From a virus, in IMG/VR virus record IMGVR_UViG_3300029309_003192, positions 1 through 41,410 of that record: a DNA stretch of 41,410 nucleotides; one strand, written 5' to 3'. The notes under the pieces are model-generated. The model was not told the DNA's origin. It did not search any database and saw nothing but the letters and a program-made list of their open reading frames with translations. A program made the translations under genes and the position numbers. Of the stretch, positions 685 to 24,311 are shown piece by piece. Positions within the stretch are counted from its first letter, which is position 1, and each line of letters begins with the position of its first letter.

Positions 685-705
685 TGAATTTTGAGAGGGA
701 TACAA

Positions 706-4577: not shown

Positions 4578-4930
4578 TGTCCCACCTCTATAATTGCTGT
4601 GAACTTTATTTCGTTATTGCTAGTTTTTTCAATTGAGTTGTAAGTGTATCTACACAAGTCAGTGGTATCCGTATCATCGCTCGGATTTTTGTACCTAATA
4701 ACTACCTCTCTCAAAGGTAGCGTGAAACTAACATCTAATGACAGTTTTGCTTCCACCGATAATGTATTGTCGTCTATTATCTTAACATCAGGTTTGACAA
4801 CGACTGCTGGTCTGCCTATCCCGCCGTCTTGTTGAGTAGCAACAGTGCCATCAAATCCAAACACCACTTCATTGATTCTTGCTCTCAATGTATCTATCAA
4901 AAATCTTGTTCCTTCGTCTAATATTGGCAT
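4574..4930 (-). CDS. Putative tail-fibre adaptor / collar-like protein
   Basis: The 118-residue product starts with a helix (EGTRFLIDTLRARIN) and continues as an alternating beta-strand protein. Its second half (REVVIRYKNPSDDTDTTDLC then IKFTAIIEVGQ) resembles the small domain that many phages use to join fibres to the baseplate, in which a strand pair is followed by a field-value strand and a final strand. This resemblance is weak and made by eye. It sits between the hub-like protein and the tail fibre, where an adaptor would be expected. An AGAGG site lies just before the ATG. An alternative is a minor baseplate protein of unknown type. Confidence 0.5.
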   Translation of the reverse strand: MPILDEGTRFLIDTLRARINEVVFGFDGTVATQQDGGIGRPAVVVKPDVKIIDDNTLSVEAKLSLDVSFTLPLREVVIRYKNPSDDTDTTDLCRYTYNSIEKTSNNEIKFTAIIEVGQ

Positions 4931-4931
4931 A

Positions 4932-6584
4932 TCAACCTCTCCTGTTTTTCAAGTATCTACTTTGCACTGCGCCCAACTTGAAGTGGGCGTTCTTGGATTC
5001 TGGAACAGTATCTGACCTTATCAGTAGTTCTTCGTTATCTAACACTGGGTGAACACTTCTTGATTTGATGACAACGGTATTAGTACCCACGCTGGCTGCA
5101 TGAATATGACCTAATTTGTTACCACTAGATGTATAGACTGGTTGATTATCTGTAGTAAAGATAGAGTTAGCGTTAACACCGTCTGTAGTAAAAGATGTAG
5201 TGCCGATGGCGTGACCTCCACCGTTGTTAATCAGAACACCTGTGCTTTGTAACACACGAGCGCCATGTATAGTATCCCTATTGGGCTGACCGAGATTAAA
5301 GCCTACACCTCTGTTGTTATCGACTCTTTCTGCTATCTCCCAACTAATTTTAATCTTAAATCCAAAAGAAGTGGCGAACTCTTCGACGCTAAATTGTCTG
5401 TTTCTATCAAAGTCATCGTCAGATGTATTGCTAATGTCAACCTCTTGGAATTTCTGTAGAACATCCTCTAATGTACCGTCAACCGAGTTTATGTGTAATT
5501 CTGATTTACGATTTATTAAATCATAATTACCACCTAAAACAATTTTCTTATCGCTATCAGTTCTTGACTGATAACTAACTAAATCACCGGGCTGAATGTG
5601 ACTGCCCTCCAGCACTTCACTTAGTATTTTTGAATTGGTAGCCTTCTTTGCCATTCTAAGCATGTTTTGCCCTATCTTTCTAGCACTCGCCTTAGTTAGT
5701 GCAGTAGGTGCATAAATGCCTCCGGGCAATTCGTTGACAGAGTCGCCTTGACTGCCGAAATCATCAATCTGAACTACATTTTTATCATTGTTGGCTCTAG
5801 GCTTACCTCTCACTACAACTCTGTTCGGTAAAGCGTCATTGTTACTTTCAGTAGTTCCCCCGCTGACTCTATTTTCAGTTAGCAAATACTCTCTCTCTAC
5901 TTGAGTTTGGGGTGAATAAACAAGATTGCCGAACCTATCGCTTCTGGGCGAGTAAAAATCATGTTTGGCTAGAAATCTAATGGCAGTCAAGGAGTCTATT
6001 CCATAGAAATCCTGAGCGACAAAGGTCGTGCTGGGTCTTTTTACCCTAAGTCCATTGATAGAACTATGAGAAGAATTACCTAACCTAATTGCTAAGTCAG
6101 AAGTTCTCAAACCCACATCAACTTTCTGAGCAAAACGGATAGTTTTATCCGTGAATCCGATATCATGTAACTTTCTACCCTTTAAGTTCTCTAAACCATA
6201 CCTGTTACCTTTGTTTGATGACTTGATTTCGGACATAACTAATGCTTGACTATGGTTCTCACTACCAACAACCAGTGCGGGCAGAGTGCTAGTTGTAGTG
6301 ACTTTATCACCATCAAAGAATAGCGAGCCTTCATAGGTCATACTGTCTGTCGGATTGTGAAGCAAACGGATGGTATCTTCTTCTTCGATGAGTTTGTATC
6401 TACGCTCAGGTGTAGGTATGAAGTCCGTCTTGGTAGGTTTGTTAGCCGCAAAGCCAGCCTTTACTTTGGTGTATTGGGCGTGGCGTACAGCGTTATCGAC
6501 AAAGCGTGGCTTACGAATCTTCTTCATCACAGTGTTCTGAGCAGCATCTGCTCGACCTGTTGCGAGATTCTTACCTAGCGCCAT
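4932..6584 (-). CDS. Baseplate hub-like tail protein (gp27/late control D-like region)
   Basis: The product is about 550 residues. The central part fits the tail-hub pattern seen in many phages: a helix with a small domain reading a property row (LTAIRFLAKHDFYSPRSD, about 195-215), the strand NRVVVRGK (about 257-264), a helix with TKASARKIGQNMLRMAKKA (about 290-315) and IQPGDLVSYQS (about 330-340). The hub forms the ring that closes the tail tube and carries fibres. Near the C-terminus (about 450-525) it has the small beta module described under findings, closely resembling a segment of the giant protein. The ATG at 6584 follows GGGGAG with 6-nt spacing and is preferred over the GTG at 6590. 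It lies 2 nt after the giant gene. Confidence 0.62.
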   Translation of the reverse strand: MALGKNLATGRADAAQNTVMKKIRKPRFVDNAVRHAQYTKVKAGFAANKPTKTDFIPTPERRYKLIEEEDTIRLLHNPTDSMTYEGSLFFDGDKVTTTSTLPALVVGSENHSQALVMSEIKSSNKGNRYGLENLKGRKLHDIGFTDKTIRFAQKVDVGLRTSDLAIRLGNSSHSSINGLRVKRPSTTFVAQDFYGIDSLTAIRFLAKHDFYSPRSDRFGNLVYSPQTQVEREYLLTENRVSGGTTESNNDALPNRVVVRGKPRANNDKNVVQIDDFGSQGDSVNELPGGIYAPTALTKASARKIGQNMLRMAKKATNSKILSEVLEGSHIQPGDLVSYQSRTDSDKKIVLGGNYDLINRKSELHINSVDGTLEDVLQKFQEVDISNTSDDDFDRNRQFSVEEFATSFGFKIKISWEIAERVDNNRGVGFNLGQPNRDTIHGARVLQSTGVLINNGGGHAIGTTSFTTDGVNANSIFTTDNQPVYTSSGNKLGHIHAASVGTNTVVIKSRSVHPVLDNEELLIRSDTVPESKNAHFKLGAVQSRYLKNRRG

Positions 6585-6586
6585 GT

Positions 6587-9500
6587 TCACTCCCCACTAT
6601 GGTCCCCTGTATTATAAGATGCATCCCCTTTGCTACCTTTTGGATGTAGCGTCTGGCTGTGTCTAGGCTGAACACTGTAATCACCCTCATCATCATCTAT
6701 AGAACGACGACTTGCGTCGGCTCGGAAGTGTTCAAGAGTGTTCTCTGACATGACCATTCTAGCAACTGGGCTGGTAATATCTGATTTGTCGTAACCTGTG
6801 ACATCGACACCGGTTATCTTCGGCCCTTGACTGTCTGGAACAGTAATGCTACTGGTCGGGTTTACAGTGTAAACAGGTGCGTAAGGTGGGCTACTTGGAG
6901 TGCCTGTTCTGGCACCCGGTACATCACTTGTAAACATACCATACTTACCACCAGCAGTTGCCCTGTAAAAATTCGAGTTTTCTTGAGGGCTACTACCTTT
7001 CAGTGCTACATAAGACCTAAACATCTGACTGTGCTTGAAGTCAAGCCCAAATGCAGGTCTATACAAAAACTGTATATTACTATCAGAATGGTTTAAATTT
7101 TCCTTTAGTGGATGCTGATGGTCACTATCTTGGTAAGGGTTAGATGATGATGTAACCCCATCTTTACCCCAACCTGTGACATCTAAGTTACCGGCGTGTT
7201 TACTCCAATCTATTACATAAGTACCGCCAAGCGGCCACATAGCATGTGCATCTGAGTGTTTAACGACACCAGTGACAGGAGCAGAACTCCAATCAAGGGC
7301 AGTCATATCTAGGTCTTTGAGAGTACGGCTTCCGAAGTTGTAAGCGCCTCTAATGTTAGTTCTCTGTCCTACTTCTCTATCAGTGTGCAGACTGTGGGCT
7401 TCTGTTGACATAACGATGTATTCTCTACTTACACCGTCGTTTAGTTCAGCAATAGTATCTACATCTAACCCTAATCTTACATCATCTCTCGAAACAGGCT
7501 CGGCACCTCTAGTGTCTGCGTTGACAGTTTCGATAGCCTCACCAACATGTGCACTAGGCTTGAGTAACCCGTCATCGGAATCTAAGTCTACTCTATCGCT
7601 AATGCCTCTTTCGATTTCACCAGCCTGCAATGTCTCGTTGCTTGGTCTAACCAAACCTTGTCCGTAGACAGGTTCGGCTGTGTTACTTGACAATACAAGT
7701 CCAGTAGCGTCATGATTTTCGCTGACAGCCATAAGTAGACTCTCGTTGAAAACTGTAGGCCATCTACAACCTCTACCATCTCCTCGGTCACCGACTCTCA
7801 ACATACTTGCTGGGTTAAACCAATCAACTACTCCCATGTTAGTAGCATCGTTGTTCACTGTATTTGCATTACCACTCTGTCTATCACTACCATCTCCTCC
7901 GAATAGATTAGTAGCAGAAGGTCTGTGCGTTACATTGGTATCTTTGTAAGCATCTTCTGGGTCCCAAGACGGTCTAAGTCCGAACCCTCTTACAGGGAAA
8001 CGCCTAACATCTTCGCCACGGGTATTACCCCACCAATCAACCATGTAATGTCTATGTGCTCTGGCTAACTCGGCTATACCTTGTCCAGCCTCATCGTTAG
8101 GGAAAAGGCGGGTCACAGTAGATGCGTTTCTTACTGTTCTGACTGGACAGCCAAATGATGCTGTCATCCTCCTTCCGTCACTATATCTAACTTGGCGACC
8201 AATCTGGTCTTGACCGAGTAAACTAGAAACTTGAGTTAACCTTTCAAGTATACCTATGTTGATAGATGCTAGCGCTTCATCTTGCCCATTACCTAGACCA
8301 AAGTATCGCCAATCACCTGCATCTTGTTGTATGAAAGGACCATTGTAATAACCTAACATTGCGTTACTACTAGATACTTCTAGCCAACCACGGATGTATG
8401 GAGACCATCTTGGTCTGTTGTACAGTTGCCTAACTGCCATTCTATAACCAAAGCACCTATTTCTGTCATTAGGTAAAGAGAGAGTCGCAACTCCAGTTGA
8501 GTCTTGATATGTTTCACAGTCCATACCAAAAGTATCACTGCCCCATCCCATAACAGAATGACCATACGAATCTAATCGACTAACACCGCCTCCTCCACGA
8601 GAGCCGCCCGGCCAGAACCCAAAGAAGTTGTATTTGTCTGAGCCCACAGTTCCTCCTTGATGATTTAGAGTTCCAGAACCATCGGTAAGTGCATCAATTT
8701 GTGCGGCAGTTTTGGCTACTCCGTTATGTGACAACGCAGTTCCGGCGTTGTTGTCATGGTCATGAGGGGGTACTACTGTCTTCATACCAAATGCAAAAGG
8801 CCCTTTACTGGCTACATAATTGAAATCGTGGTAATGTATTGTTTCAAAGTGTTCTGGAACATGGTTGTATGGCTTTCGGTCAACGGGTGTATCAGCAGTT
8901 CCAGCCTTGGTGTATATATTTCTCGAAGCGTCGTCACTATACCAAGTAAATGGTCTGCCTAAATTAGGATGCCACATGCACAAAAAAGCATCTGCTGGAT
9001 GCAATGAATTAGTGTCTCTACTTCCGTTAGCAAATTGTGGCAAGTTCCTAGTCATCGTACTTGTATCAGAGTCGAGATAGAGTGTTGATGCACTACCGTT
9101 ATCGTACGGTCTAGTCAACCTAAGCACTGTTCCTGCTGCAATGTTAGACCAAAAGGAAGCATCTGCCACAACATCGTCAAAACCAACCGTTCTACCATGC
9201 GTTCCAGCCACTCCAAGCGGGCCGAATATATTTCTATAACTAGCAGTGTACCTTACTCCATCTTTAGTATATTCTAATCTTTCACCATAGTAAGGAAACG
9301 CTGGAAATAAATCAGAACTATCTGCAATGGTTATTGCACCACCAGTGCTTGTTCCGCCAGAACTACTTGCGTTATTTACCACACAAGTAGGAGACAGGCT
9401 TCTAATTCTTTTGTGAACTTCATATATATCTAAAAATGATGTTGGGTAACCCGCAAGTGTTATCTGAGCACCTACTGCACCATAGTTTGCTCTGCACAAC

Positions 9501-12500
9501 TCATAATAATTATCTGGTTTATACCATTCTAAATGTTTGAATTTACTAGCACCTGTTGCTAAAGCACCGTCTTTATGAAGAACGCTCCACCAAGGTATGG
9601 TCAAAGTTCTACCCGGTGTTGAACTTACAAACATGCCCGGTCTGTAAGGTAGACTTCTGCGGGTAAAAGCAGGACTGATAGACTCTTGAACGCCGAGAGG
9701 ATTGTAAAGAGCGAGAGGTGGTAAACTAGCAAATTGACTACCGGGGTCGGGGTCAACATCTAATATAACTTCGTTTAGTATAACTTCGCAACCTCTCACA
9801 TCAGCCATCATAGCCTCGGCTAAGATAAGTGCATAAGCGCCTCTAGTGTTGACATTCTTTTCTATGGCAATCACTGTGTTAACTTGCTGACCTGTTAGTT
9901 CAGTTACTTTTGCACCAGCCTCGCTAGGTGCTTTTATAGGGTCACTGTGATTTTGATGAAAACCTTGTAACTGTTGTTTAAACACATTCGGCTGAATAAT
10001 AATCTGATATGAGCCGACCTCTAACGGGTCTGGGAAATGATTGTTCATGGTGTATGTAGCGGCTGCTTCTAAGACAAGTGTGTGTCCACCTGCTGCGTTA
10101 ACATCACCAGCGTTTGAACCCACACTGGCTGCTATACCGTATCCTTCGTGCTTTAGTTTGGTCTCAATTAATAATGTAAATGCACCACCGTGTATGTCAC
10201 TAGGACCATAAGCAGCACTTGCTGTAGAAAACCAAACCGTTGGGTCTCTGCCAAAACCATCTGATGCGACAGTATCACCGTCTAATTCTAATCTACTCGT
10301 TTCAATTGTCCCGATAAGCGACTGTTCAAAGAGAGATTGATTAGAACTCTTACATGCTTGATGTAAATCATACATTCTTTGATACACCGGATGTGCATAA
10401 TGACCGGGCATCAGAGCCATAGTAGGAGTAACATAGTGATGGCCCATTCTCGGTATGGGCATAGGTGTCATGACCGGGGCAGTAATATGTTGACTGGGCA
10501 CAGAATTGGCAGCAAACGCACCTGTGTTTGCAGGTAATGAATTGTACATGCTAAACCAGTCTATCTTTTTCATATCTGGACTTGCACCACTATACTCACT
10601 GTGGTCACGCAGACGCTTAGATGCAAACATTCTGGTTGTCCCGGCAGGTATATAGTAAGAAGGTACAACTTTGAGATTTGTTTTTCCAATCATAAACGCT
10701 TCAAATTCAGGTGATACAACTACATTAGTGAATTTTTTTGTGCCTGTATTTGTATAAGATGCGATTACCCCTTTGTCTGTAGTAGGGTCATAAACTCTTA
10801 AGAAATACCTATCCCCACTTACCTGACTAGTATCTTTCCAAATATTAGAAATAGGGGTACTATCAACATAAATTTCGTTGTTTGTTTTGTCATAGTCGTC
10901 AAAGTTTAATTCTTGTAAATCGTGTCGATGTGTCATAGTAGTTCCCATTCTAGTTACATGGAAGTATAATGACCTATCATGCGGCTCAAACGCAGATTTG
11001 AGTGGGTTACTATCAGTATGCTCGGTCCATTTACCTAGTTCTGAATCAGGGAAATTAGAATCTTGAGACAGGTGTTCCCATCCGTTGTTTTCCCATGTTG
11101 GCCAAACTCTTGGGCTAATGTGTTCGTGCTCAAACATCTCTCTAATCTCAGTAATATTTTGTGCAGGGTGTTGTAAGCCGCCAGAGCCAACGGTTTCGTT
11201 TTGATATGCTTGTATTCTATCAAAGCCTGACCTGATTACTATATTGCCGGGTACTTCATCTGGTTCTGGTAACCTTATTCTTAAGTTAGGGTTAACTCCG
11301 GCGCCCGCTAAGGCAGGGGCTAAGCCTTCTATTTCTCTGTCACTAATGTGCCTGAAATCCATAATTACTGTGCCAAATGGCGAACCACCTTCGATTCTAT
11401 GTTCTTGTCCGGTGTCATCTATTACATTAAGACTAATGAATTGCTTATGTTCGTTGGGTATCATCAAAGCATTTCTTACTTCTATCGGGTGTTGTTCTGC
11501 TAGTTGAGGATGTCCTAATTCTTGTGCTTGTATAATAGGGAACATCGCAGCGTTAGTAGTTTCAAAACTAAACCTAACATTACCGAGTATTTTCTCTCCT
11601 ACTGTCTTATACGCATTTGAAGAATCTTTGCGCTTTGTCCAAGGTACCATACCTAATCCACGAGCGTTCAACGCTGGCATGGTCAGACTACCACCATCCA
11701 TACGCTTCCAAACTACATGTTCTGGCAAAAAATTTCTGGCAGCGCTTCTTTTAGCATAAAAACCAAACAAACCAGTCCTACCTTGGTTAACACTTGATGA
11801 TAGATAGTGCTTTTTGCCAGTAATACCTATACACTCTGTTGCATAATCAGATTGATTTTCGTGTATGGAGTTACTTACTACTACACTTTCGTCCCAAAAC
11901 AAATCACCTGTTGGGTATCTACAGGCATTGGCTCTAACCATGTCACCACTTTGTATGGTTCGATGCCACTGAGCATCGCTTGGTAGATTATTACCACTAG
12001 GGTAATCGTCAGCAGTAGTTGGCCTAAATTGATTTTTGTGTATCTGAACCTCTACATGAGGACCAGCAGTAGCAGGTCCGACATACCGGTCTTTGTTATG
12101 AACAAGTAGAGTAGAAAATGCTATAGTACCTGCTTTGGTTATGCTAGATTCTTGACTGGCTAACAACATGTCACCGGTACAGGTGACTCCGTCGATATCA
12201 GCCTTTGCTATCAAAGGTAATTCACTTTCATGACTAACAACAATTAGGTGCCTGCTCGACAATCCGGTGACGCATGTATCACCCGCAAAAGTAGTAGTAG
12301 CACCTTCTGAATTAGTGACTACAGGAGCAGAATCTGCCAAGCATGTTTCAGCAGCCCCATAAGGATTGAATCCTAAAAACGGATGCCATGCGCCCAAACC
12401 AGCAGCATAAGTATTGCTACCCAAGTCTAAAGAATTCAGATAGGAATATCTTTCACCATGCCAACCTATTGCTCCTACTGGTCTAGTTCTATCTACAGCA

Positions 12501-15500
12501 TCCACAAACCCACTATAATGCACTTGACACATATGGTCCTTTGAAGTGTTCTTTGAGTCGTTATTGTGTCTATGTGTCCCTGCCTTAGTCCAAATGTAAA
12601 CTTCGTAAACAGTGCTGTCGCTAAAACTAAACGCACTACTGTCATGAGGATTAATTAAGTTAGTAGAGCCGCCATCAGGACTTTTACCTAATGTTAGTGT
12701 AAGATTTGGTGCAGAGTAAGATGTAGATACATATGGTGCATAATGAGCGTCTGTTCCGTCACTTACTCTCACCCATCCATACTCTGGTAAAGTCGTTAGG
12801 CTACCACTAACCGTTAAACTAGCAGGAGTTCCACTGTTTTCTTCTGAATATGCAACGATTGAAGTTTTAACCCAACCATATCTGTCTTGCTTGTGAGCAT
12901 TCTGCATTGATGGCATGAATGTTCCACCCATTGCTTTCAACGGGTCTTGTCCGGGGAATGTGTTGATTGAAGCGCTAATTATTGTAGCCAACTCTTCTGC
13001 GTTTTGCACCCTAGTTGCGTCAACAACTACGACATTGTCATGAACCTCTTGATTAGTTGGAGTGCCTCCGTAGTAGCCTAAGTAAGCCTTTGCTAACAAA
13101 CCACATGGCCTAAAAGCAGAAGTGTTATGTTCGGCATTATTACCGACATTCAATCTACCAGTTGTCGGATGTGTTGGATTTTTACTTACATGGTTATCGA
13201 GGAAATGTCCACCCGGATGGTAGCCGCCATCCATGTGCCAAACAGCAGCAGACTTTCTAGTCTGTAAGAAATTAGAACCGCCTATGGTATTAGCAGCACC
13301 ACCTGCGATTGCTACAGGAACATGATTAAACGGATGGTAATGTTTGGGAAGGTTGGCTGTTGTAGCGACGCTTCCCTCATAGTAAAATGCTTTATCAAAG
13401 GTTTGGTTGTAGTTTTTAGTAGCACTAGCGTCTTCTGATGGGAATCCTTTGGTAGGCTGCCAGTTCATAACATAGTTAAATGCTTTAAGATTGTTCTTTT
13501 GGAAAAAGGTAGTCATAGGCAAGTGAGCCTCGGCGCTACCTCTGTTGAAACCACTGTGTTCAGTTTGGTCACCATTGGCTAATTGATTTGGTAAAAATGT
13601 ATCTTTAGTTGCATCGCCATTGAAGTGTATGGGGACTGCACTGTAACCGTTACCCAGTGTAACTATACGGGAGCCTTGTGGTTCATGCGCTGCTGTATTG
13701 TGAGGGAAAGCCTGACCGGGGCCAAATATCATGTAAGTAGTATGATGGGTGTTGCTTCCAGTCGGGCTATATCTAGCATGCGGTTGAGCAAATCTCAACA
13801 CTATTGGGCTGGGAATGTTAACACTTACACTGTTAGTGCCGTCAGTATAATCTATACCTGTGACTTTACTGTTAGCATTTTTAGCCATGTCAAAAGTAAG
13901 TATAGCGTCTTGATTAAAGAATGGTGGATTGTTTTGACCTTTGTGTTGGTCAAGATAAGGTGTGCCGGGGAACATGGCCAGCATAGCATTGGTATCTAAC
14001 AGTGCGTAAGAACCAGCCACCTCGCCTATGTTCTGCATACCGGCGCTACCTGTTGGACCAGAAGAGTATGGATGTGTGTAGAATTCACTGTAATCGTTTT
14101 GTGTTCCGTCGTTAATATCTACGACAGCGCCGCTAAATCCACCGCCGAAGTATAACGGCACCCAATGGTCAGGGCTGTCTCGACCTCCACGGAAGAATAG
14201 GAACGGGCTAGATTGTTTACTACCTGCTCTTCTTATACCATCTGTTTTGATGGCATCGTATGTGTTGGCGTAACCCTTGAACACTATGTCATTGGCAGAT
14301 GGTGTGGACCAGTTAGAAGAACTAGCATTACCTACATAGATGACTCTGGTAACGCTATTTGCACCGGGCTCACTTCTTACTGTAGCATATTTGTCAGAAC
14401 TGTATCTAATCAAGAAAGGTTGGCCCCAACTATTAGCGTTGTTAGATGCAAGTTTACCGAACAAGGCCCATGTCTGGCCGCCTGCGACATCTATGTTTGT
14501 AGTTCCGCTTGCAGCACTTATCAGTGCAGAAGGCGAATCAACCCTAGGTATAATTCTGTCACCTGCTACATCAATGAAGTTTTCACCTCGTAGATTTCTT
14601 TGCCATGTAGTAGTGTCGACAATGTTATTCTGACTGTCCACCAAGACAGGAGTGGCTGTGTTGGCATTAGCACCTCTATATTTAGTGGTAATCTGTAGTA
14701 AGGTCTCAGGTATGTAACCGACATCTAATCGAGTGCCACTATCTATTTCGCCTGTGCTAAGACCTCCTGTGTGTTTGCTAGTTACCGTAGCATCTGTTGA
14801 AGCACCGTCTAACAATCCAAAGTCTTTAGTTCGCTTTGCCTCGAACAATTTACTCAAAGATGTTTTTTTGTCTGCTCTTGATTTTATTCTAATAGCAGTA
14901 GGACTAACGCCCCACTCTCCTAATGTCTTACCGTCAGGAGCAAACATGTGCGTGCAATCAAAACTCGTTGCGCCTATGTCGTCCAATCCAGCATCTGGCA
15001 TATTGATAGCGTGTTCTACAGCAGCAGCAATTACCTCATCCGTCAACAGACAAGTGAAATTTATCCTTGGGCTCAATATCAGCCCCGGTCCACCATCTAC
15101 GATTTCTGTAGTGTTAGTGACTCCGTAAAAGAAGTGCTTGTTAGATGCACCTCCCGACTTACCAAAATGAGAACGACTAGTGTAGAATGTAGTCATACCT
15201 TGGTCGCCACTAGTTCCTGCATCATCACTTAGTTGTAACATACCTGATTCTGGGAAACCAAGATAACCTAGTATATCTGGGTGAGAAAAAGAGCCTCCGT
15301 TGTCATACGGGCTAGTTAAAACAACTTCTAATGTTGTTCCGTTAAGAGTCGCAGTTACATGTATACCTACATGTGGGCTTGGATAATTGTTCCACAAATT
15401 ACCTTTGTAAGACTGCAAAGTGCCCCCAGTCAATTCGCCACAAACTTCTCCTTGGCCTACTACATGCTTTCCTATAGTAAAGCCACCTTGCGCTACATCT

Positions 15501-18500
15501 CTATCGTCAAAATGAATGATAACTTCTTCATCCAATGTAGGCGGTAAATATGTGTTATCATTAGCAAATGATTGTCCGAACTGTCTGTAGACCATCCGTA
15601 TGGTATGGTTGTTGCCTCGGTGGTCAACAAATCTAAATCCGTAAAGTGGAGTCTTACCTATGTTTTGTTTTTTCATGTCATCTTTAGGTATATAGCCACC
15701 AGTGTTATTTACGGTGAACTCAGACATGGGCCTTCCTTCGACAGAAGAGGAGCCATATTTCGACCTGAATACCGCTTGAGTGCCATCATTATCAAAGCCC
15801 CACCTACTCACATCAGGTGCCCATCCGGGTATACCTGCCTGTGTCAATCCACCAAAGTTTATTCTAGCCTTTGCTCGACTACCAACTCTCAATCCTTCGA
15901 CTAGGGTTGAGGCAGGGCTTTTGGTTTCAAAGGACTCGTTGAGCAATGTGTTTGCGTTTCTACCACTAACCATCTCTACATTAGCGACAGTCAAAGCGTC
16001 TCCGCTGTCAGCATTATCTGGTCCTAAATTTAAATTGTTGAAAAACGGGTCAGCAGGATTTTCTGGCGGTAGATGCTCTTTCAATGTTGTAATAGGAGCA
16101 AACGGTCTACCAAACCTGTTGATAGGCATAGGTGCAGGGTGCATATTTTCTCCAGTTATCTCGTCCGGTTGACACCAATAGTTTCTGAACCTACCACCGT
16201 GACCTATCAAAAACTGAGGCTTGTATGGACTTTGTGCCTTACTACTATCTAACCAAGCGCAGAAGTTCCGACCAGCAGCCCCCGGTATAGTAGAGTGGAT
16301 GACGACAGAAAACCCTTTTTTGTTATTAGAATCTAATACAACCCTACCTAAATGAGCCCTGACATAACCCATATGGCTACCCCTGTCGTGACTAGAAAAT
16401 GCTTTTTCTACATCCCAAAACGGTGCCGGGTCATGTGTAGACGCTGTTGCAGCAAAGTCAGCGTGTAGGTGTGTGGCTGCTGGGTCGATGTTAGTGCTGT
16501 ATGCGTTAGATTTAGGCCCAGCGCTTGTCAAATCAAAACGAGCGCTTTCTCCCAGATATTGGTCATTTGGTCTACGGGCGTGTGTTTTGCCATTCTTGGC
16601 ACCGGCTTGATTGATGAGCCTAACTACTTCTATAGCAGCAGATTCGATATTAGTTACTCCTTCTTTTAACGACACCTCGCCTAAGTCCACAGTCAGCCTT
16701 CTTACGAAATCCATTTGAGTCCAATGGTCTAAATTGTTTAAGCGAGAATCGGTTAATGTGAGTTGCTTTGACCTTATACCTTTCATAGCCAAAAATACAG
16801 GTATGACTCTAGTGCCGTCAGGAGTATCAAAGAATGTAGAAGACTCTCTAGTAGTTGAGTCAATCACTTGATGTTCCAGAAGAGCGCTATCCGGTAGCGC
16901 CACGGCAGGGTTAGTTCTATCACTGTAGCCTTTACTGATTGTATCAAGTCCACCTACATTGTGTTCTGATATACCCCCAGTAACGCTTTCATTATGTGTT
17001 GAAGCATGAGCGTAACTCGACTCTATAAAGTCGGATTTAGTAGTAGTGTTCATTCTCTTATTTTGACTAGGAAACCCAGCAGCAACATCTAACTGTGTGC
17101 CTGAATCAGTAACATCATTTTTGACAACTCCTGTTTTGTTAGTATCCTCTTCACTAATTCTAGCAGCGGCGGGACTTGATTGAACTTGCATGTGCAAGTC
17201 TTGGAATGCAATAAATTCTCTATCACCTTTAACATCGTATAATAATATTCTAACAAAATCATCTGTGCATTGATAGGGGTCTAAATAAGCGACAACAGGT
17301 GCAGTGGTCGTCGCTGCAAACAATTCAGCACAATTCAATTCAATTGTTTTGTTAATATGTTGGACTAGATTCTTAGCCGTTTCTATACAACTGTCTCCGA
17401 TAAGGAAATTTTCTATAGGCACGCTATCTCTTGGATTACCGTTTGCTCCAGCCATCCCGCCGTTGAATCCTGTCCATACCTCACCTTCGTTTAATGTTCC
17501 TCGACTTTTACAAAACAAACCTTCTACTGCATAAGGATTAGTGTAATGCATATTCATCCATACTGTATCACCTTGTCTTAACCCGCCAACACAATAAGGA
17601 TGAGACCAAGCCCTGTTGAGAAATGTTTCTTTTACTTTAGGCCAAGTGCTAGCAGAAGTAGCGTGTAAATCTTCTACAAATATTTCAGCGCCCACTGCTG
17701 GAGTAAACCCGCTATCAGGGCTTACGATAGTAAGCACATTACCTACTCTGTTATCATAAAACCCACGATTAATTACACCACTTGAATTTATAAATACAAC
17801 TCTATATTTGTAGTCAGAATCAGGAGAACTGATTGGAAACAAACTAGCATCATCTAGCGTAAGAGAGGTGGCGGGGCTACCTGTCACTGAGGTAACCTTT
17901 GCTCGTGGCCTCTTGCTAACAATCTTAGGCAGATGAGGATTAGTTGTTGGACCCGCTCTAAGTTCAATGGCACTAACATATTGTCTGAGTCCATAGTCTA
18001 CATTACCACCTTGTGTCATTACGCTAGACCTATCAAAGTAGAATGAACGGCGCCCTTCATATCCCGCACTAATCAAACTTGGATTGTCAGCAATACTGTT
18101 GTAATTCATATCTTGGTAGCCGGGCGCAGGCGTAAGATGTGCACCTACAGTTAAATCACGAAAGAAGTTTTCACTGGCTATGAAGTCATCACCATGGGCA
18201 CCTGCAACTTCTAAATAGTGGTTAGTTGTATTTCGAGCATCATAAATTACCCACTCGCCGTTAGGTAAGAAAGCCCTGCGGTATCTAGCACCGCCAGTAA
18301 TACCGGCTACATCAACGGCTGGAGCAGTAGGTATAGGGAATATATTAGCATCTTCGACATATATTTTGTGGTCGCTAGTAGTATATGGTCTGGTAACTTT
18401 TGTGCCACTTCTATGATTATCTCTTTGAACCGTATATGAAAAAGGGCCAAATATTTCAGGGTCCTGTGGAAACACTGCTTCTGCTCTTCTGCCTACCGGA

Positions 18501-21500
18501 TTAGGGTTCCAAGAATGTGCAGTATGCGTAGCGTCAATGTGTAGTTTCATACTGTTATCAGGACCGGGGAATATACTTTCTTCTGGGTTATCAAAGAAAA
18601 AGTCTTCAAACAGTGGTATCTCTACCAGCGCTCTAGTGCTTGCATATTGACTACCTAATTGATAATCGTGTTGAACTGTGTCTAATGTTTGAAACAACCT
18701 ATCGTTGATAGTAGTCCCGTCATTACACATTGACTCTTCACTAAACTTATCGTCAACATGTAAAACACTACCTTTAGCAATTCCAGTAGAGGTAATCCAG
18801 TCAGCAAGACTCGCTGCCTCGCTACCGTCTGCTAGAACAAATTTACCTGAACCTTGATGAGTTGACCCACTAGCGAAAGTAAATACATCGCCGGATTTGC
18901 TAGTATATTCTGCACTAGCAAATTGTTTCTGTTCCCCTTGATTAACAGCGAGTTCTAAATATATTTTACCTGATGCAGGGAAGCAGTATGTTCCCCATGA
19001 CTGTAAATCAGTAGCCTTGTTGTTGAGAGGTAACACCGTAACAGTTGTAGAACTAGTTGCACTAACAACTGCTTGGCAGTCTCTACGAGTATTCCAAGCA
19101 AGTCGTGTAAGGGGTGCCGGGTCCCAAGTCTCTTTTGTGTTGACTGCTCCTTGACCACCGCCACCAAGCATCATTGTTACCACTGGCGCACCCGGCATGA
19201 TTTCTTTGACGATGTGAGAATCTGGGCTGGCTGAACCCTTTACATTCACTGTCGATGATGCTATATCGCTCAATAGTCCGTGTGCTCTTAGTGCCATGTT
19301 ACCGTCATTATCACTGCCAAACGATAACACTCTAGCCCTTGACATAAGATGTTCTATGCTTACAACATTGCTTATACCGCCGTCTATCACTGCCTTTGAC
19401 AACTGAGCAAAGCGAGCCCTATCAGTAGGTTGTAAAACCAAACTAGTCGTGTTGTTTTGTGATTTGTGTTCGATTATGTCAAAATACTCATGGACCAATG
19501 TGCTTTGATTAGTGCTACCTCTACCCGCTGATTGTGGTTCAATAAACAATTCATCATCATCTACAACAGCGGCAATGGTGCCTGCCCCAATAGTAATACT
19601 GTTACTAGTGACAGCAGTAACTGTTCCTAAACGCTTACCGTCTGCCTTGAAGATTATATTGCCTACTGCGACTAATTGATTGGCTGTTCCACCATCAACA
19701 GTCATAGCACCACTAGTAGAAGCAGAATAACCTCCTACATTATTGATGAATAAACCTACTCTGCCTCTTCTTCCGTTACTTGGATTTCTAAATCTTACAC
19801 CAGCAACTTCTGAAAAGTCTTTAGATTTTATCAAATTGCTTTTTACTAAAACTCTGTGAAAATTAGAAGACCTAGATGCCAACTCTGTTCTCGCCACTTT
19901 AATTGCTTGAGGTATAGTTTGAGGTGAATCTGTGCTTACTCTAGGTAAATAGTTAGTCGGGCACATGCTCAAATCTAACTGGTCATCACCTACATTGCCT
20001 TCCGAGTCTTCGCCTTCCAAATCACCGTCAGTAAAACCAAACATATCTGGAGTATCAAATGTTATCATTCCTCCGGGCGCTACTATACCCAGCGGTCTAT
20101 TTGCCATACCGTCTCTTATCAAATCGATTATACGAGTTGAGCCTGTGACTATGGTGCTTACATCAGGTAAGGTTTTACTTACTAACAACTTAGGAGAGTT
20201 GTCTGCAAACTTTACAATTGCGTCACTCAAAGCAGCACTGTTAAAACTACTATTGTTTGGTGTAGCAGAGAAGACTATAGTCTTAGCAGAATGATTTATT
20301 TTAGCAGTTTGATTTGTAGCAGATGTAAACGGACTATGCCCTTCTATAGAAATTCTTTGAGCAGGTATGACCATACCATCTTCACCAAACGCTTTGACAC
20401 TTTGAAGAGTCAGTGTAGCGGTAGATATGTTGGCTGTCAACCTAGATGTTGCTCTTACATCAAAATGTTCACCTGTTCTATCTACAGCGTTATAATGAAT
20501 TTGCACAAACGGCGCATAATCGTATGTTTCTAATTCTGGCAATATCAAAGTCGCAATTCTACTTTCTATAGAAGGTATTACTGACTTGATGTTGCTACTC
20601 GAATCTGTAGATGAAATAGACTTTAGTAAAAACGGCGTTGTATCAAATTCTGGACCGCCTAAAGCCAACAGGCCTCTTTGTGTATCATCAATGTCTGCCA
20701 TGCCATTCTCTACCAACACAGAAACTCTTGAAGACGATACTATGTCCTTTAGTGCTACTGGACCATGTTCGTCAAAACTAGATATAACTGAATTCACGGG
20801 TATAATATCTTTGATACTACCATATTGTGATACAAATGTAGCGTTTACCACATCGCTACCTGCATCTAGTTTCTTTTCTACCGTGTGAGATTCAGTCGGA
20901 GGAAGAACACCCATGAACGGGTGACTTGAAACATGATTGAGTATGTGCCTTCCTGTGTGCCCAATCAAGAAGTCTTGTCCCATGTTAGTAGCACTTGCTG
21001 AGAACTGATTGAACTCATGAGAGTCTATGGCCATGCTCAGAGAAAACACTATTCCGTGATTTTCAAAGTCACTTTCGTCTATAACTACCTGACCTTGTCT
21101 TTGAGAAAATTGTGTGCCACTGCCCTGTGGTTGAAACACATTACCGTTACCAGCGTCTACAATACAATCTCCGGTGATAACGACGAACTCACCGGCATCA
21201 TGATTCATCAACAGTCCTCTTTCGCCGTTGGTTGGATTAGCCGAAAAATCTAGGTGAATAGACGATACTTTTATTTCTCCATTAGTTGGGTTTATAGAAT
21301 GAAGCCTTACTCTTTCAGGTGCTTTGTTTGTTGGTTTACCAGTTTTCTCGTCATAACCAAGAGGGTTGATAAGTAAGTTATATGGCACTTTGATTATTTC
21401 TCTGTTAGTAACAGAGGTAGCGCTGTAAACTTTAACGGAATAACTACCAGCACTATAAGGTGCTATTTGAAAACTTTGAAAAGCATCTCCGCTACCACCT

Positions 21501-22327
21501 GTAAGTTCTTGAAGCAAGGACTTAGCAGCACTAGCGCTAACGGTGATTGTAGAAGTGAGTCCTGTAGAAGCGGTCAAAGATGGTGTAGTTACTCTAGTAG
21601 ATATCGGGTCAATTGGCTCCTCGAAACGCCACAACCCTAGTGTGTTATCGCTCTTTACAGGTGCAAAATCGGCTCTGCCAGAATCTGCTGCGTTAGCAGA
21701 AAGATGTATTGTCTCAAGCGTTCCTCTGAAATCTCCACCTCTACCGCCTAAAAACATCTGACTTTGTTGCGGAATAAGTTGATGTTCTTCCTCTAATACT
21801 TGCTCGACGAGTAAATCTCCGTTTACATGCATAGACAGTATTCTCCTATCGAATGTTACTGTCACATTTAGTAGTTCTCTACTTCCTTCTGTAAATGCAG
21901 TAACATCATTACTGTCTTCATCTGAGCCTAAATTAGAACCAGAAATAACTGAGTTGACAGAGGGGAAAAGAATACCATCCCAGTAAGCCAAATCGCCGTT
22001 GGCTTTGTTTACAGGCTTAGCACTAGAAAGCGTGTAGACTGAGTCTCTACCGGTGTTTTTGTTTTGTAATCTCACTTCAAAAATGGCTGGAGCCGAACTA
22101 CTTGGAGAGCCTACACTCAATCTCATAACATTGTCTTGTTCAAATATAGTGCCACCACTATCTGGCACAAACCATGTTTCGAGAGTAAATGTGTTCAATG
22201 TAGTAGGTAATCTCTTTCTTTCTGTTGTTTGTTTACCATGTAAATCTGAATTGTTAGTTGGGACTATAACGCTATCACTGATACCGTTGAATTTCAACCC
22301 ATAACCTGCATTCACCAACAAACTCAT
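6587..22327 (-). CDS. Giant structural protein, about 5,246 residues, N-terminal LamG-like domain
   Basis: This single uninterrupted frame covers 38% of the window. The first 240 residues look like a concanavalin/LamG fold: FTLETWFVPDSGG, LNVTVTFDRRILSMHVNGDL, MFLGGRGGDFRGTLETIHLS and LGLWRFEEP are its typical strand sequences. The rest is a long series of beta-rich segments, rich in Gly, Ser, Thr, Asn and His, with few helices. At about 860-925 it has the small beta module shared with other virion proteins. It also has four helix segments ending in -INx (near nt 17340, 16615, 15000 and 12970) and a duplicated DSGT[QR]LDV motif (near nt 17085 and 14735). No protease, glycosidase or membrane segment is evident. 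Its position between tail paralogues and hub points to the tail tip or a long side fibre. The ATG at 22327 follows AGGTG (22338-22334). Confidence 0.8.
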   Translation of the reverse strand: MSLLVNAGYGLKFNGISDSVIVPTNNSDLHGKQTTERKRLPTTLNTFTLETWFVPDSGGTIFEQDNVMRLSVGSPSSSAPAIFEVRLQNKNTGRDSVYTLSSAKPVNKANGDLAYWDGILFPSVNSVISGSNLGSDEDSNDVTAFTEGSRELLNVTVTFDRRILSMHVNGDLLVEQVLEEEHQLIPQQSQMFLGGRGGDFRGTLETIHLSANAADSGRADFAPVKSDNTLGLWRFEEPIDPISTRVTTPSLTASTGLTSTITVSASAAKSLLQELTGGSGDAFQSFQIAPYSAGSYSVKVYSATSVTNREIIKVPYNLLINPLGYDEKTGKPTNKAPERVRLHSINPTNGEIKVSSIHLDFSANPTNGERGLLMNHDAGEFVVITGDCIVDAGNGNVFQPQGSGTQFSQRQGQVVIDESDFENHGIVFSLSMAIDSHEFNQFSASATNMGQDFLIGHTGRHILNHVSSHPFMGVLPPTESHTVEKKLDAGSDVVNATFVSQYGSIKDIIPVNSVISSFDEHGPVALKDIVSSSRVSVLVENGMADIDDTQRGLLALGGPEFDTTPFLLKSISSTDSSSNIKSVIPSIESRIATLILPELETYDYAPFVQIHYNAVDRTGEHFDVRATSRLTANISTATLTLQSVKAFGEDGMVIPAQRISIEGHSPFTSATNQTAKINHSAKTIVFSATPNNSSFNSAALSDAIVKFADNSPKLLVSKTLPDVSTIVTGSTRIIDLIRDGMANRPLGIVAPGGMITFDTPDMFGFTDGDLEGEDSEGNVGDDQLDLSMCPTNYLPRVSTDSPQTIPQAIKVARTELASRSSNFHRVLVKSNLIKSKDFSEVAGVRFRNPSNGRRGRVGLFINNVGGYSASTSGAMTVDGGTANQLVAVGNIIFKADGKRLGTVTAVTSNSITIGAGTIAAVVDDDELFIEPQSAGRGSTNQSTLVHEYFDIIEHKSQNNTTSLVLQPTDRARFAQLSKAVIDGGISNVVSIEHLMSRARVLSFGSDNDGNMALRAHGLLSDIASSTVNVKGSASPDSHIVKEIMPGAPVVTMMLGGGGQGAVNTKETWDPAPLTRLAWNTRRDCQAVVSATSSTTVTVLPLNNKATDLQSWGTYCFPASGKIYLELAVNQGEQKQFASAEYTSKSGDVFTFASGSTHQGSGKFVLADGSEAASLADWITSTGIAKGSVLHVDDKFSEESMCNDGTTINDRLFQTLDTVQHDYQLGSQYASTRALVEIPLFEDFFFDNPEESIFPGPDNSMKLHIDATHTAHSWNPNPVGRRAEAVFPQDPEIFGPFSYTVQRDNHRSGTKVTRPYTTSDHKIYVEDANIFPIPTAPAVDVAGITGGARYRRAFLPNGEWVIYDARNTTNHYLEVAGAHGDDFIASENFFRDLTVGAHLTPAPGYQDMNYNSIADNPSLISAGYEGRRSFYFDRSSVMTQGGNVDYGLRQYVSAIELRAGPTTNPHLPKIVSKRPRAKVTSVTGSPATSLTLDDASLFPISSPDSDYKYRVVFINSSGVINRGFYDNRVGNVLTIVSPDSGFTPAVGAEIFVEDLHATSASTWPKVKETFLNRAWSHPYCVGGLRQGDTVWMNMHYTNPYAVEGLFCKSRGTLNEGEVWTGFNGGMAGANGNPRDSVPIENFLIGDSCIETAKNLVQHINKTIELNCAELFAATTTAPVVAYLDPYQCTDDFVRILLYDVKGDREFIAFQDLHMQVQSSPAAARISEEDTNKTGVVKNDVTDSGTQLDVAAGFPSQNKRMNTTTKSDFIESSYAHASTHNESVTGGISEHNVGGLDTISKGYSDRTNPAVALPDSALLEHQVIDSTTRESSTFFDTPDGTRVIPVFLAMKGIRSKQLTLTDSRLNNLDHWTQMDFVRRLTVDLGEVSLKEGVTNIESAAIEVVRLINQAGAKNGKTHARRPNDQYLGESARFDLTSAGPKSNAYSTNIDPAATHLHADFAATASTHDPAPFWDVEKAFSSHDRGSHMGYVRAHLGRVVLDSNNKKGFSVVIHSTIPGAAGRNFCAWLDSSKAQSPYKPQFLIGHGGRFRNYWCQPDEITGENMHPAPMPINRFGRPFAPITTLKEHLPPENPADPFFNNLNLGPDNADSGDALTVANVEMVSGRNANTLLNESFETKSPASTLVEGLRVGSRAKARINFGGLTQAGIPGWAPDVSRWGFDNDGTQAVFRSKYGSSSVEGRPMSEFTVNNTGGYIPKDDMKKQNIGKTPLYGFRFVDHRGNNHTIRMVYRQFGQSFANDNTYLPPTLDEEVIIHFDDRDVAQGGFTIGKHVVGQGEVCGELTGGTLQSYKGNLWNNYPSPHVGIHVTATLNGTTLEVVLTSPYDNGGSFSHPDILGYLGFPESGMLQLSDDAGTSGDQGMTTFYTSRSHFGKSGGASNKHFFYGVTNTTEIVDGGPGLILSPRINFTCLLTDEVIAAAVEHAINMPDAGLDDIGATSFDCTHMFAPDGKTLGEWGVSPTAIRIKSRADKKTSLSKLFEAKRTKDFGLLDGASTDATVTSKHTGGLSTGEIDSGTRLDVGYIPETLLQITTKYRGANANTATPVLVDSQNNIVDTTTWQRNLRGENFIDVAGDRIIPRVDSPSALISAASGTTNIDVAGGQTWALFGKLASNNANSWGQPFLIRYSSDKYATVRSEPGANSVTRVIYVGNASSSNWSTPSANDIVFKGYANTYDAIKTDGIRRAGSKQSSPFLFFRGGRDSPDHWVPLYFGGGFSGAVVDINDGTQNDYSEFYTHPYSSGPTGSAGMQNIGEVAGSYALLDTNAMLAMFPGTPYLDQHKGQNNPPFFNQDAILTFDMAKNANSKVTGIDYTDGTNSVSVNIPSPIVLRFAQPHARYSPTGSNTHHTTYMIFGPGQAFPHNTAAHEPQGSRIVTLGNGYSAVPIHFNGDATKDTFLPNQLANGDQTEHSGFNRGSAEAHLPMTTFFQKNNLKAFNYVMNWQPTKGFPSEDASATKNYNQTFDKAFYYEGSVATTANLPKHYHPFNHVPVAIAGGAANTIGGSNFLQTRKSAAVWHMDGGYHPGGHFLDNHVSKNPTHPTTGRLNVGNNAEHNTSAFRPCGLLAKAYLGYYGGTPTNQEVHDNVVVVDATRVQNAEELATIISASINTFPGQDPLKAMGGTFMPSMQNAHKQDRYGWVKTSIVAYSEENSGTPASLTVSGSLTTLPEYGWVRVSDGTDAHYAPYVSTSYSAPNLTLTLGKSPDGGSTNLINPHDSSAFSFSDSTVYEVYIWTKAGTHRHNNDSKNTSKDHMCQVHYSGFVDAVDRTRPVGAIGWHGERYSYLNSLDLGSNTYAAGLGAWHPFLGFNPYGAAETCLADSAPVVTNSEGATTTFAGDTCVTGLSSRHLIVVSHESELPLIAKADIDGVTCTGDMLLASQESSITKAGTIAFSTLLVHNKDRYVGPATAGPHVEVQIHKNQFRPTTADDYPSGNNLPSDAQWHRTIQSGDMVRANACRYPTGDLFWDESVVVSNSIHENQSDYATECIGITGKKHYLSSSVNQGRTGLFGFYAKRSAARNFLPEHVVWKRMDGGSLTMPALNARGLGMVPWTKRKDSSNAYKTVGEKILGNVRFSFETTNAAMFPIIQAQELGHPQLAEQHPIEVRNALMIPNEHKQFISLNVIDDTGQEHRIEGGSPFGTVIMDFRHISDREIEGLAPALAGAGVNPNLRIRLPEPDEVPGNIVIRSGFDRIQAYQNETVGSGGLQHPAQNITEIREMFEHEHISPRVWPTWENNGWEHLSQDSNFPDSELGKWTEHTDSNPLKSAFEPHDRSLYFHVTRMGTTMTHRHDLQELNFDDYDKTNNEIYVDSTPISNIWKDTSQVSGDRYFLRVYDPTTDKGVIASYTNTGTKKFTNVVVSPEFEAFMIGKTNLKVVPSYYIPAGTTRMFASKRLRDHSEYSGASPDMKKIDWFSMYNSLPANTGAFAANSVPSQHITAPVMTPMPIPRMGHHYVTPTMALMPGHYAHPVYQRMYDLHQACKSSNQSLFEQSLIGTIETSRLELDGDTVASDGFGRDPTVWFSTASAAYGPSDIHGGAFTLLIETKLKHEGYGIAASVGSNAGDVNAAGGHTLVLEAAATYTMNNHFPDPLEVGSYQIIIQPNVFKQQLQGFHQNHSDPIKAPSEAGAKVTELTGQQVNTVIAIEKNVNTRGAYALILAEAMMADVRGCEVILNEVILDVDPDPGSQFASLPPLALYNPLGVQESISPAFTRRSLPYRPGMFVSSTPGRTLTIPWWSVLHKDGALATGASKFKHLEWYKPDNYYELCRANYGAVGAQITLAGYPTSFLDIYEVHKRIRSLSPTCVVNNASSSGGTSTGGAITIADSSDLFPAFPYYGERLEYTKDGVRYTASYRNIFGPLGVAGTHGRTVGFDDVVADASFWSNIAAGTVLRLTRPYDNGSASTLYLDSDTSTMTRNLPQFANGSRDTNSLHPADAFLCMWHPNLGRPFTWYSDDASRNIYTKAGTADTPVDRKPYNHVPEHFETIHYHDFNYVASKGPFAFGMKTVVPPHDHDNNAGTALSHNGVAKTAAQIDALTDGSGTLNHQGGTVGSDKYNFFGFWPGGSRGGGGVSRLDSYGHSVMGWGSDTFGMDCETYQDSTGVATLSLPNDRNRCFGYRMAVRQLYNRPRWSPYIRGWLEVSSSNAMLGYYNGPFIQQDAGDWRYFGLGNGQDEALASINIGILERLTQVSSLLGQDQIGRQVRYSDGRRMTASFGCPVRTVRNASTVTRLFPNDEAGQGIAELARAHRHYMVDWWGNTRGEDVRRFPVRGFGLRPSWDPEDAYKDTNVTHRPSATNLFGGDGSDRQSGNANTVNNDATNMGVVDWFNPASMLRVGDRGDGRGCRWPTVFNESLLMAVSENHDATGLVLSSNTAEPVYGQGLVRPSNETLQAGEIERGISDRVDLDSDDGLLKPSAHVGEAIETVNADTRGAEPVSRDDVRLGLDVDTIAELNDGVSREYIVMSTEAHSLHTDREVGQRTNIRGAYNFGSRTLKDLDMTALDWSSAPVTGVVKHSDAHAMWPLGGTYVIDWSKHAGNLDVTGWGKDGVTSSSNPYQDSDHQHPLKENLNHSDSNIQFLYRPAFGLDFKHSQMFRSYVALKGSSPQENSNFYRATAGGKYGMFTSDVPGARTGTPSSPPYAPVYTVNPTSSITVPDSQGPKITGVDVTGYDKSDITSPVARMVMSENTLEHFRADASRRSIDDDEGDYSVQPRHSQTLHPKGSKGDASYNTGDHSGE

Positions 22328-22328: not shown

Positions 22329-24311
22329 TCATACACCTATTACATAATCAGAGGCCATCAATTCAAGATTGAATGCGTAGTAGTTGTTCCCAGCATCATA
22401 ACGCACATGAAGTTTCTCCGGTATTATTCTTATACCACCAGCATTACCAGAGGGTGATTTGTCAGTGAGAGTTATCCACAATTGTTGACCTGCACCCACT
22501 AAAAAACCAAAAATAGATTCTATTTCGTTTGGTATCAACGGCTCTATAAATTTGTCATACCAACTATCGGGGCTCTCATCTCCAGAACCACCGTCGCTCA
22601 TACCAAGTAATAAATTTTGCATGTTCTTTGATGCACTTCTTGTATTGAACTCCGACCCTTTTTCCGTAGGTATGATTTCACCAAAGGTGGTAAAGAAGTT
22701 TCTAGCAACACCTGTAATCCCTGTGCTTGTCACTAAACTATCATAGGGTATTTGTATACCTCTTAACAAATCATTGTTCCTATTAGCATTAGATACGACC
22801 CCTATCAAATCTTGAACCTTGTCACCTGCGGATTTTTTTGCCTGACTCTTTGGACTGTTTCTACTTTGAAACTCGACACCGCTGAAAAGTTGTCTAAGAT
22901 TTTTACTCAACAAACTAGGATGTTCTATTTCTGTAGCAGGATTGTAACTTTGTATAAACGCTAACATTACACCGTTTTGTTGCACTGTAAAAGCGTCACT
23001 AATTGTTTTTCCACCAGCCGGATTGAAGCCAGTTGTCACTGAATCTATTACATCCCCTGATATTTCAAATGCACTTTTGACTAGTGTAGCCATTGCGAGG
23101 GCAGGATTGTTGGCCAAGTCTATATCTTGAACTGGGACATTTATCACAGCATCGGCAGATGCCACATCATTCGTTAGACCCATTCTCACTAATCCACCTG
23201 TTCTAAGCAAAGATGGATTTGAGCCACTTGACACAGTTACTCCAAAGTTAGTAAGTCCGTTCCACTGCGTGTTGAAGTCAAACTTTAATCTTATTCCTGC
23301 CCTAGGAATATTTTCGCTAGGAATACTGGTATCTACGAGACTGTGTTGAGAGCCTATGTGCATAACTGTATCGTATAGTAGTCCAGTAAACGGTGGATTT
23401 TCTAACCAATAACTAGGAATGATTTTAATCGTTTGGGAATTAAAATGCTGCAAAGCACTATTTTGTGAGTTTATTGTTACTCGCATACCTTGCCTTATCA
23501 GTGCTTCATTGACAGCAGTTAAGCCAAGTGTGTAAAGGGCAGTGTCACCATCATCTACGGCTGGGTCGTCAATCAAATAATCTGCGTAACCCACATCTTC
23601 ACCCATATGATTGAATACTCTAAGTGATTGGTATATTCTTTCATTAGATGCTAAAGATACTGAGGAAGAAGTTGTAAAAGTAATAGTGTTGTTAGATATA
23701 GATTGAATAAAACCAATGAGGCTACCGTCTTCTCTAACTAATCTATCGCCTACATTAAGCACATCTTCTACTACTAATTGTGCCGTAGCATAAAAATTAG
23801 TTAGTGTAATTTGAGTAAAGCCTGATGAGTAACTTGTTGAAGTTTTGAAATTGGTATGAGGCCTAACATTGAGTTCTTCGGTAGCCCTAGATGCATGTTC
23901 AAATAGTCCCCCGGCGGGCGCTACTAGATTGATGGTGCTGCTCTGACCTTTAGGGACATCAGCCGTAGAATTGAACTCGAATGAATTAAGAGGACCTCCG
24001 CCGTTAACTGCGTTAAAAGAATTCGGCTCGGTAGGTAAAAGCGCACCAAAATTTATCATACTTCTCATAGGATTTGCGTCAACTGTTACATTATTACTAC
24101 CTTCTACAACCAACCCCTCATCGTCAACGAATATACCGTTGATGTCTATTTTGATAGATGGGACATTCGTATCTACTGCAAATCTCTGTAATAGATTGTT
24201 AGGTGTAGGAAAAGCGCTGACATTTCTATTAACTGACATATCTAGGCTTTGGGCAATTAAATCAATTTGGTCATTGCCGTTTGCCATAGTTAGTCTAATC
24301 GGTATTGCCAT
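22329..24311 (-). CDS. Tail protein, paralogue of the upstream 848-residue protein
   Basis: The 660-residue product begins MAIPIRLTMANGNDQIDLI and shares its start, a KIDINGIFVDDEG strand, the C-terminal motif KSAGDKVQDLIGVVSN (about 490-505), RGIQIPYDSLVTS, the RNFFTTF turn and its last strand with the gene upstream, so the two arose by duplication. The small beta module (GDRLVREDGSLIGFIQS, about 190-210) is inserted in the middle. No enzymatic motif is visible. Gene position between the short tape-measure-like protein and the giant protein suggests a distal tail or baseplate component. AGGTG precedes the ATG at 24311 with good spacing. Function is inferred from context only. Confidence 0.7.
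   Translation of the reverse strand: MAIPIRLTMANGNDQIDLIAQSLDMSVNRNVSAFPTPNNLLQRFAVDTNVPSIKIDINGIFVDDEGLVVEGSNNVTVDANPMRSMINFGALLPTEPNSFNAVNGGGPLNSFEFNSTADVPKGQSSTINLVAPAGGLFEHASRATEELNVRPHTNFKTSTSYSSGFTQITLTNFYATAQLVVEDVLNVGDRLVREDGSLIGFIQSISNNTITFTTSSSVSLASNERIYQSLRVFNHMGEDVGYADYLIDDPAVDDGDTALYTLGLTAVNEALIRQGMRVTINSQNSALQHFNSQTIKIIPSYWLENPPFTGLLYDTVMHIGSQHSLVDTSIPSENIPRAGIRLKFDFNTQWNGLTNFGVTVSSGSNPSLLRTGGLVRMGLTNDVASADAVINVPVQDIDLANNPALAMATLVKSAFEISGDVIDSVTTGFNPAGGKTISDAFTVQQNGVMLAFIQSYNPATEIEHPSLLSKNLRQLFSGVEFQSRNSPKSQAKKSAGDKVQDLIGVVSNANRNNDLLRGIQIPYDSLVTSTGITGVARNFFTTFGEIIPTEKGSEFNTRSASKNMQNLLLGMSDGGSGDESPDSWYDKFIEPLIPNEIESIFGFLVGAGQQLWITLTDKSPSGNAGGIRIIPEKLHVRYDAGNNYYAFNLELMASDYVIGV

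Follow-up and report, generated by a model that had tools for sequence, protein, structure and literature searches.

A 5,246-residue, largely non-repetitive protein encoded in the tail module of a probable archaeal virus, with insertion ports for exchanged modules

The window analysed is the whole 41,410-nucleotide stretch of IMG/VR record IMGVR_UViG_3300029309_003192 (positions 1 to 41,410). On its minus strand the genes follow in the order protease, capsid, small genes, 525, 157, 680 (tube-like), small overlapping genes, 136, 857, 660, the giant gene, 552, 118 and 392 (numbers are protein lengths in residues; Table 1). The small overlapping genes lie at the place expected of tail assembly chaperones, which would be their putative role. 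The stop-free frame of the giant spans from a GTG at 22336 (or the ATG at 22327) down to the stop at 6587, and the in-frame GTG would give 5,249 aa. The alignment of relatives begins at the ATG at 22327 (MSLLVNAG / MTLTIDPG / MTILIDPG), so the coordinates and the 5,246 residues of the initial annotation are right, as is its mass of about 570 kDa (computed, 569 kDa; 569.3 kDa to one decimal). A giant of about 5,250 aa is among the longest genes known in tailed viruses. It was also said to take up 38% of the window and to burden a small genome; the latter is not supported, as the window is a 41-kb fragment and relatives' records reach 90-115 kb, so that the gene makes up about 15-17% of a genome and not 38%.

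Table 1. Features of the window. Residue numbers within the giant count from the GTG at 22336; G and L numbers are our handles for other records and loci.
Feature	Coordinates	Strand	Evidence or remark
Thermosome (group II chaperonin) subunit	691..2202	+	PF00118 E=1.7e-129
Tail protein, 392 aa, conserved neighbour	3399..4577	-	
Tail protein, 118 aa, conserved neighbour	4574..4930	-	
Hub-like protein, 552 aa, directly downstream of giant	4932..6590	-	position; sub-threshold PF13550 E=0.07
Giant gene, 5,246 aa from conserved ATG	6587..22327	-	ORF and relatives' alignment
Conserved C-terminus, residues 5065-5249, ending QPRHSQTLHPKGSKGDASYNTGDHSGE	6590..7144	-	A1; 52 loci
Insertion port, residues 5058-5064	7145..7165	-	~240-aa LamG module in relatives
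Insertion port, residues 4536-4565	8642..8731	-	260-315-aa propeller-like module in G004, G043, G047, L062, L064
Insertion port, residues 4262-4335	9332..9553	-	63-89-aa modules in G045, G052, L026, L098
Insertion port, residue 4022	10271..10273	-	153 aa in G028/G022, 77 aa in G045
Insertion port, residues 3213-3222	12671..12700	-	GSGY-type and ~115-aa modules, G007/G020/G033 group
Highly conserved segment, residues 2680-2780 (..VPLYFGGGFSG..DINDGTQNDY..FYTHPY..)	13997..14299	-	A8
Highly conserved central segment, residues 1955-2100 (..IGHGGRFRNYWCQPDE.TGENMHPAPMPINRFGRPFAPITTL..)	16037..16474	-	A7; 258 loci
Insertion port(s), residues 1490-1677	17306..17869	-	64-84-aa modules in G005, G019, G020, G040, G041, G054
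~78-aa module, residues 858-936	19529..19765	-	hhalign, blastp
Predicted N-terminal LamG/concanavalin-A-like domain, ~residues 4-240	21617..22327	-	AlphaFold model and Foldseek
Dit-like tail protein, 660 aa, directly upstream of giant	22329..24311	-	N-terminal similarity to 857-aa protein
Dit-like tail protein with LamG domain, 857 aa	24321..26894	-	PF13385 E=4e-9
Mini tape-measure-like protein, 136 aa	26887..27297	-	weak phrog_10780 match E=0.0015
Tail-tube-like protein, 680 aa	28059..30101	-	hhalign to HCTV-5 tail tube, probability 53%
Major capsid protein, HK97 type	34182..35351	-	phrog_24667 E=6.7e-54

The frame had been taken for one real gene, neither a chance ORF nor a set of fused neighbours, and window shuffles, independent records and purifying selection bear this out. 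Among 100 shuffles of the window the longest stop-free run was 216 codons, and third-position G+C is low all along the frame. The downstream 552-aa gene, used as a query, retrieved 23 loci, and the records that hold both neighbours have the same single ORF (5,497, 5,272, 5,610 and 5,355-5,360 aa). Searching with the profile of the C-terminus led to further full copies; together with the window there are 26 full-length copies in IMG/VR records, a set that includes a few near-identical pairs from different assemblies, of 5,168-6,137 aa and 42-100% identical to the window copy, with 1,078 invariant positions. Of 20 long records chosen by their capsid protein, 11 have the giant's C-terminus in an open frame (5,173-6,140 codons), and a twelfth (G039) has 4,959 aa of the giant before the contig ends. 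The central 146-aa segment was matched at 258 loci in viral_contigs, of which 80 were fetched and all 80 are open throughout. Over the whole gene dN/dS is 0.04-0.13 in six pairs and below 0.35 in each computable 525-codon block, some blocks of G000/G001 being synonymous-saturated and hence not judgeable; in the pairs compared the giant is under purifying selection. Disrupted copies are rare (G004 is split into several frames; G017 and G032 are interrupted by ambiguous bases) and look like sequencing or assembly faults. Since independent records have the same single ORF beside the same neighbours, the misassembly that the initial annotation named as a possible refutation is not seen. A chance or mis-assembled open frame has unusual length as the sole point for it, is contradicted by the independent assemblies, the selection and the shuffles, and is to be regarded as refuted. 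Relatives of the giant were found neither in prokaryote genomes nor in annotated phages.

The virus itself appears to be magrovirus-like. Besides the match given in Table 1, the thermosome subunit matches NCBIfam thermosome alpha (E=2.6e-126, slightly under the curated cut-off); the major capsid protein is 33% identical to that of the haloarchaeal HCTV-5, and an S78 prohead protease is also encoded. PolB, RFC and ERCC4 nuclease, with terminase and portal, are encoded in relative G004 (90.8 kb), the window itself being without the replication module. This virus type, as judged from the thermosome gene, the Druskaviridae-related capsid protein and the relative with PolB, RFC and ERCC4, makes Poseidoniales the likely host. 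Poseidoniales are among the commonest archaea of the surface ocean. Passages of the published descriptions of magroviruses, which are viruses of Marine Group II archaea (Poseidoniales), report a thermosome, an HK97 capsid module, PolB, RFC and ERCC4, with structural and replication modules running in opposite directions (PMC5332604, PMC10160649, PMC12999244), and thermosome-type chaperonins mark clade 1 of Nishimura (PMC5332604). Magrovirales group A (Apasviridae) is thus matched by the thermosome and HK97 capsid module in the window and, in the window's relatives, by PolB, RFC, ERCC4 nuclease and the oppositely directed structural and replication modules. Those published passages do not mention a giant tail gene; an earlier mention in other magrovirus papers is possible.

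The placement of the giant between tail genes and a hub-like gene, as first annotated, is true and conserved across relatives, where the synteny of the tail module is kept (in divergent ones, on the upstream side). Position and weak matches point to a Dit role for the 857-aa and 660-aa proteins and to a hub role for the 552-aa protein. The 857-aa protein also matches phrog_10356, a virion structural protein (E=2.4e-17). Its N- and C-terminal parts are common to the 660-aa protein, and the two genes look like a duplicated Dit-like pair; the divergent relatives G040 and G041 have a single Dit-like gene ahead of the giant. The tape-measure-like protein has 136-304 aa in relatives and 480 aa in HCTV-5; a tape measure of only 136 aa, if that is what the protein is, would imply a very short tail. 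Against the G007/G020 group the giant is 63% identical, as compared to 33-41% for the 660- and 857-aa proteins and 52-56% for the hub-like protein. The 78-aa module of the giant is common to the 552-aa hub-like and the 660-aa proteins (hhalign probability 97.8% and 93.8%; found also by blastp). When gene families of the window and pieces of the giant were compared by hhalign with the tail proteins of HCTV-5 and vir519, the tube was the sole match.

An AlphaFold model of residues 1-1100 is beta-rich with a modest mean pLDDT of 48.9, and Foldseek of this model retrieved LamG folds in PDB and BFVD. The LamG-like start of the initial annotation is in agreement with this (perlecan LG3, TM-score 0.51 normalised by target), and on so modest a predicted model the N-terminus shows a LamG jelly-roll fold; Pfam, LamG included, gave no match in residues 1-1750. 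The BFVD search also matched A0A1B1IU10 along the whole modelled piece (E=8.8e-43; 1,174 columns, 25% identical), an unannotated virus protein in UniProt that is likely a distant homologue. The model of residues 4150-5249 is not usable (pLDDT 24.9), and the structure beyond residue 1100 is presumed to be beta-rich. The backbone matched no family in Pfam or PHROGs, five overlapping pieces gave nothing credible against PDB sequence profiles (two weak matches were at chance level), and no hydrophobic stretch of membrane-span strength was found. The claim of repeated structural motifs up to the end of the protein is mostly wrong: a nearly complete all-against-all profile self-comparison gave one module of about 55 residues in three places (about 1323-1380, 1490-1540 and 4310-4375), and beyond it no tandem or internal repeats as in an adhesin or fibre shaft were found. 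Foldseek also retrieved binding domains of botulinum toxin, which have the LamG jelly-roll in common with the model; these matches do not point to a toxin. A virion RNA polymerase was considered and set aside, there being no Pfam match, and a tape measure was rejected as the giant is not helical by model or composition and a tape-measure-like gene is already present.

Alignment of the relatives shows that the backbone is conserved and that insertions occur at fixed places, with at least five such ports. Of 71 C-terminal sequences, 16 have a LamG module at the port 5058-5064, with some records counted twice; the copy inserted at residue 5063 matches a PHROG of virion structural proteins as well as PF13385 (E=8.5e-6, marginally below the curated cut-off). 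The module at 4536-4565 has a repeated DGTK...LSTPFD pattern, which suggests a propeller, and no match to it was obtained in Pfam or PHROG. Both of these ports are empty in the window. For the small GSGY module the PHROG matches are to families of virion structural proteins, tail fibres and baseplate wedges. To compare modules with their surroundings, identities were calculated for both, those of the modules including short flank stretches so that the true values differ slightly. The flanks of G001 and L006 are 99% identical and their LamG modules 48%; for G001 and G005 the values are 95% and 42% (35% in a second comparison), and for G043 and L062, 93% and 35%. In G047 and L090 the order is opposite (flanks 65%, module 79%). 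As flank and module identities disagree at two ports, the LamG or propeller-like modules have been exchanged there between viruses.

The initial annotation had called the product virion-type, which stands, and left its role open between fibre, spike and adhesin; of these the best fit is an adhesion scaffold at the tail tip or close to the baseplate, since the backbone is better conserved than neighbouring tail genes, is largely non-repetitive and in relatives has exchangeable modules at fixed sites. We consider it reasonably probable that the giant is such a scaffold at the tip of a magrovirus-like tail, displaying swappable binding cassettes, and prefer this reading since it accounts at once for the synteny, the conserved backbone and the exchange of modules. 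The giant would be a largely non-repetitive, probably beta-rich virion protein of an archaeal virus tail, located at the tail tip where it adjoins the Dit-like and hub-like proteins. The N-terminal LamG and the optional LamG, propeller-like and small modules would face the cell, exposed on the exterior, and attach to glycans or proteins on the surface of Poseidoniales cells, acting in receptor binding; a module swap between viruses would change the target bound while the scaffold stays constant. With sugar-binding-type parts swapped at fixed slots of a conserved scaffold, the giant probably shapes which cells these viruses infect. Against the scaffold it counts that the backbone is more conserved than typical host-range adhesins, that its sequence matches none of the known families of tail or receptor-binding proteins (Pfam, PHROGs, PDB profiles) and that no fold is solved or well modelled beyond the N-terminal LamG. 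A stronger version, in which the tail tip is mostly one single-chain mega-protein whose standardised internal ports take recombined unrelated binding modules, a plug-in display platform of Poseidoniales viruses folded with the aid of the viral thermosome, we hold only tentatively and think doubtful.

A long side tail fibre, that is, an oligomeric extended adhesin with modules along its shaft or tip, would also agree with the very long chain, with LamG and other beta modules and the location in the tail module, and small GSGY modules occur also in a PHROG named tail fibre. It is unlikely, as the giant has almost no repeats, unlike most fibre shafts, its backbone has diverged less than the tail genes that flank it upstream, and its place is between the Dit-like genes and the hub-like gene and not beyond the hub. 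Extreme length, non-repetitive sequence and the encoded prohead protease could instead suit a virion polyprotein from which the S78 or some other protease would release several proteins of the tail or head. Yet the gene is never split into separate genes in the 26 full copies, all 80 central loci are open, and prohead proteases normally act on head proteins, which makes this reading improbable. The least probable of the three is a capsid-surface or neck-attached decoration (whisker or head fibre) in place of a tail-tip protein: LamG/ConA modules also match PHROGs under head and packaging, but the giant is syntenic with the tube-like, tape-measure-like, Dit-like and hub-like genes and has a module in common with the hub-like protein, and we give it very little credence.

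The gene is real and widespread. Its kind is ordinary, that of a large modular tail protein; its size, few repeats, host group and port-based modularity are unusual. Druskaviridae (HCTV-5, HVTV-1) have the same order of protease, capsid, tube, assembly chaperones, tape measure and tail-tip genes, and a LamG protein, but in HCTV-5 several genes of 240-500 aa occupy the giant's place, and hhalign gave no profile similarity between HCTV-5 tail proteins and the giant. In length the giant is comparable to virion proteins of PHROGs such as phrog_701 (6,136 positions), phrog_2885 (baseplate wedge, 4,179) and phrog_5342 (tail fibre, 3,319), none of which matches its backbone. The small module of GSGY type in the inserts of relatives is matched by phrog_701 and phrog_5342, and phrog_2885 has a weak match to the 525-aa gene of the neighbourhood. 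Phage receptor-binding proteins also have a conserved carrier with exchangeable binding parts; here, however, the swaps are at ports inside a backbone of 5,000 residues and not at a fibre tip. To our knowledge the receptor-binding machinery of Poseidoniales viruses is uncharacterised. A hallmark gene of this share of the genome with swap ports would give a host-range handle from metagenomes, the module type at each port being comparable with host and site. The few giant virion proteins known are joined by a conserved one of about 570 kDa that is largely non-repetitive and is not represented in the sequence libraries of Pfam, PHROGs and the PDB.

Some observations on other genes may be added. 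Between the giant and the hub-like gene there is a variable slot in relatives (L046:5891-6370, minus strand; L012, L019, L005, L010, L073) that is empty in the window. The slot genes have a common N-terminal leader of about 30 aa, M(K/R)RMTPMDEAWMILKRQTTLGE.. (shorter in some), and unrelated bodies, among them a PARP-like ADP-ribosyltransferase (PF00644 E=6.4e-5, below cut-off) and an HD domain (PF13328 E=1.5e-6); the leader may serve as a tag by which cargo is loaded into the virion. A similar xFxxAWxxLK leader opens other genes (L035:13324-14157, minus strand; L040, L209, L006, L013). A 1,517-aa protein (36829-41382, minus strand; 1,551-1,863 aa in relatives) is encoded between portal and protease and has a weak match to ATP-dependent DNA ligase (E=1.7e-4; 1.5e-4 in G004). 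In G004 the true portal is a separate upstream gene, and in HCTV-5 a large zeta-toxin/ParB protein is encoded upstream of the protease.
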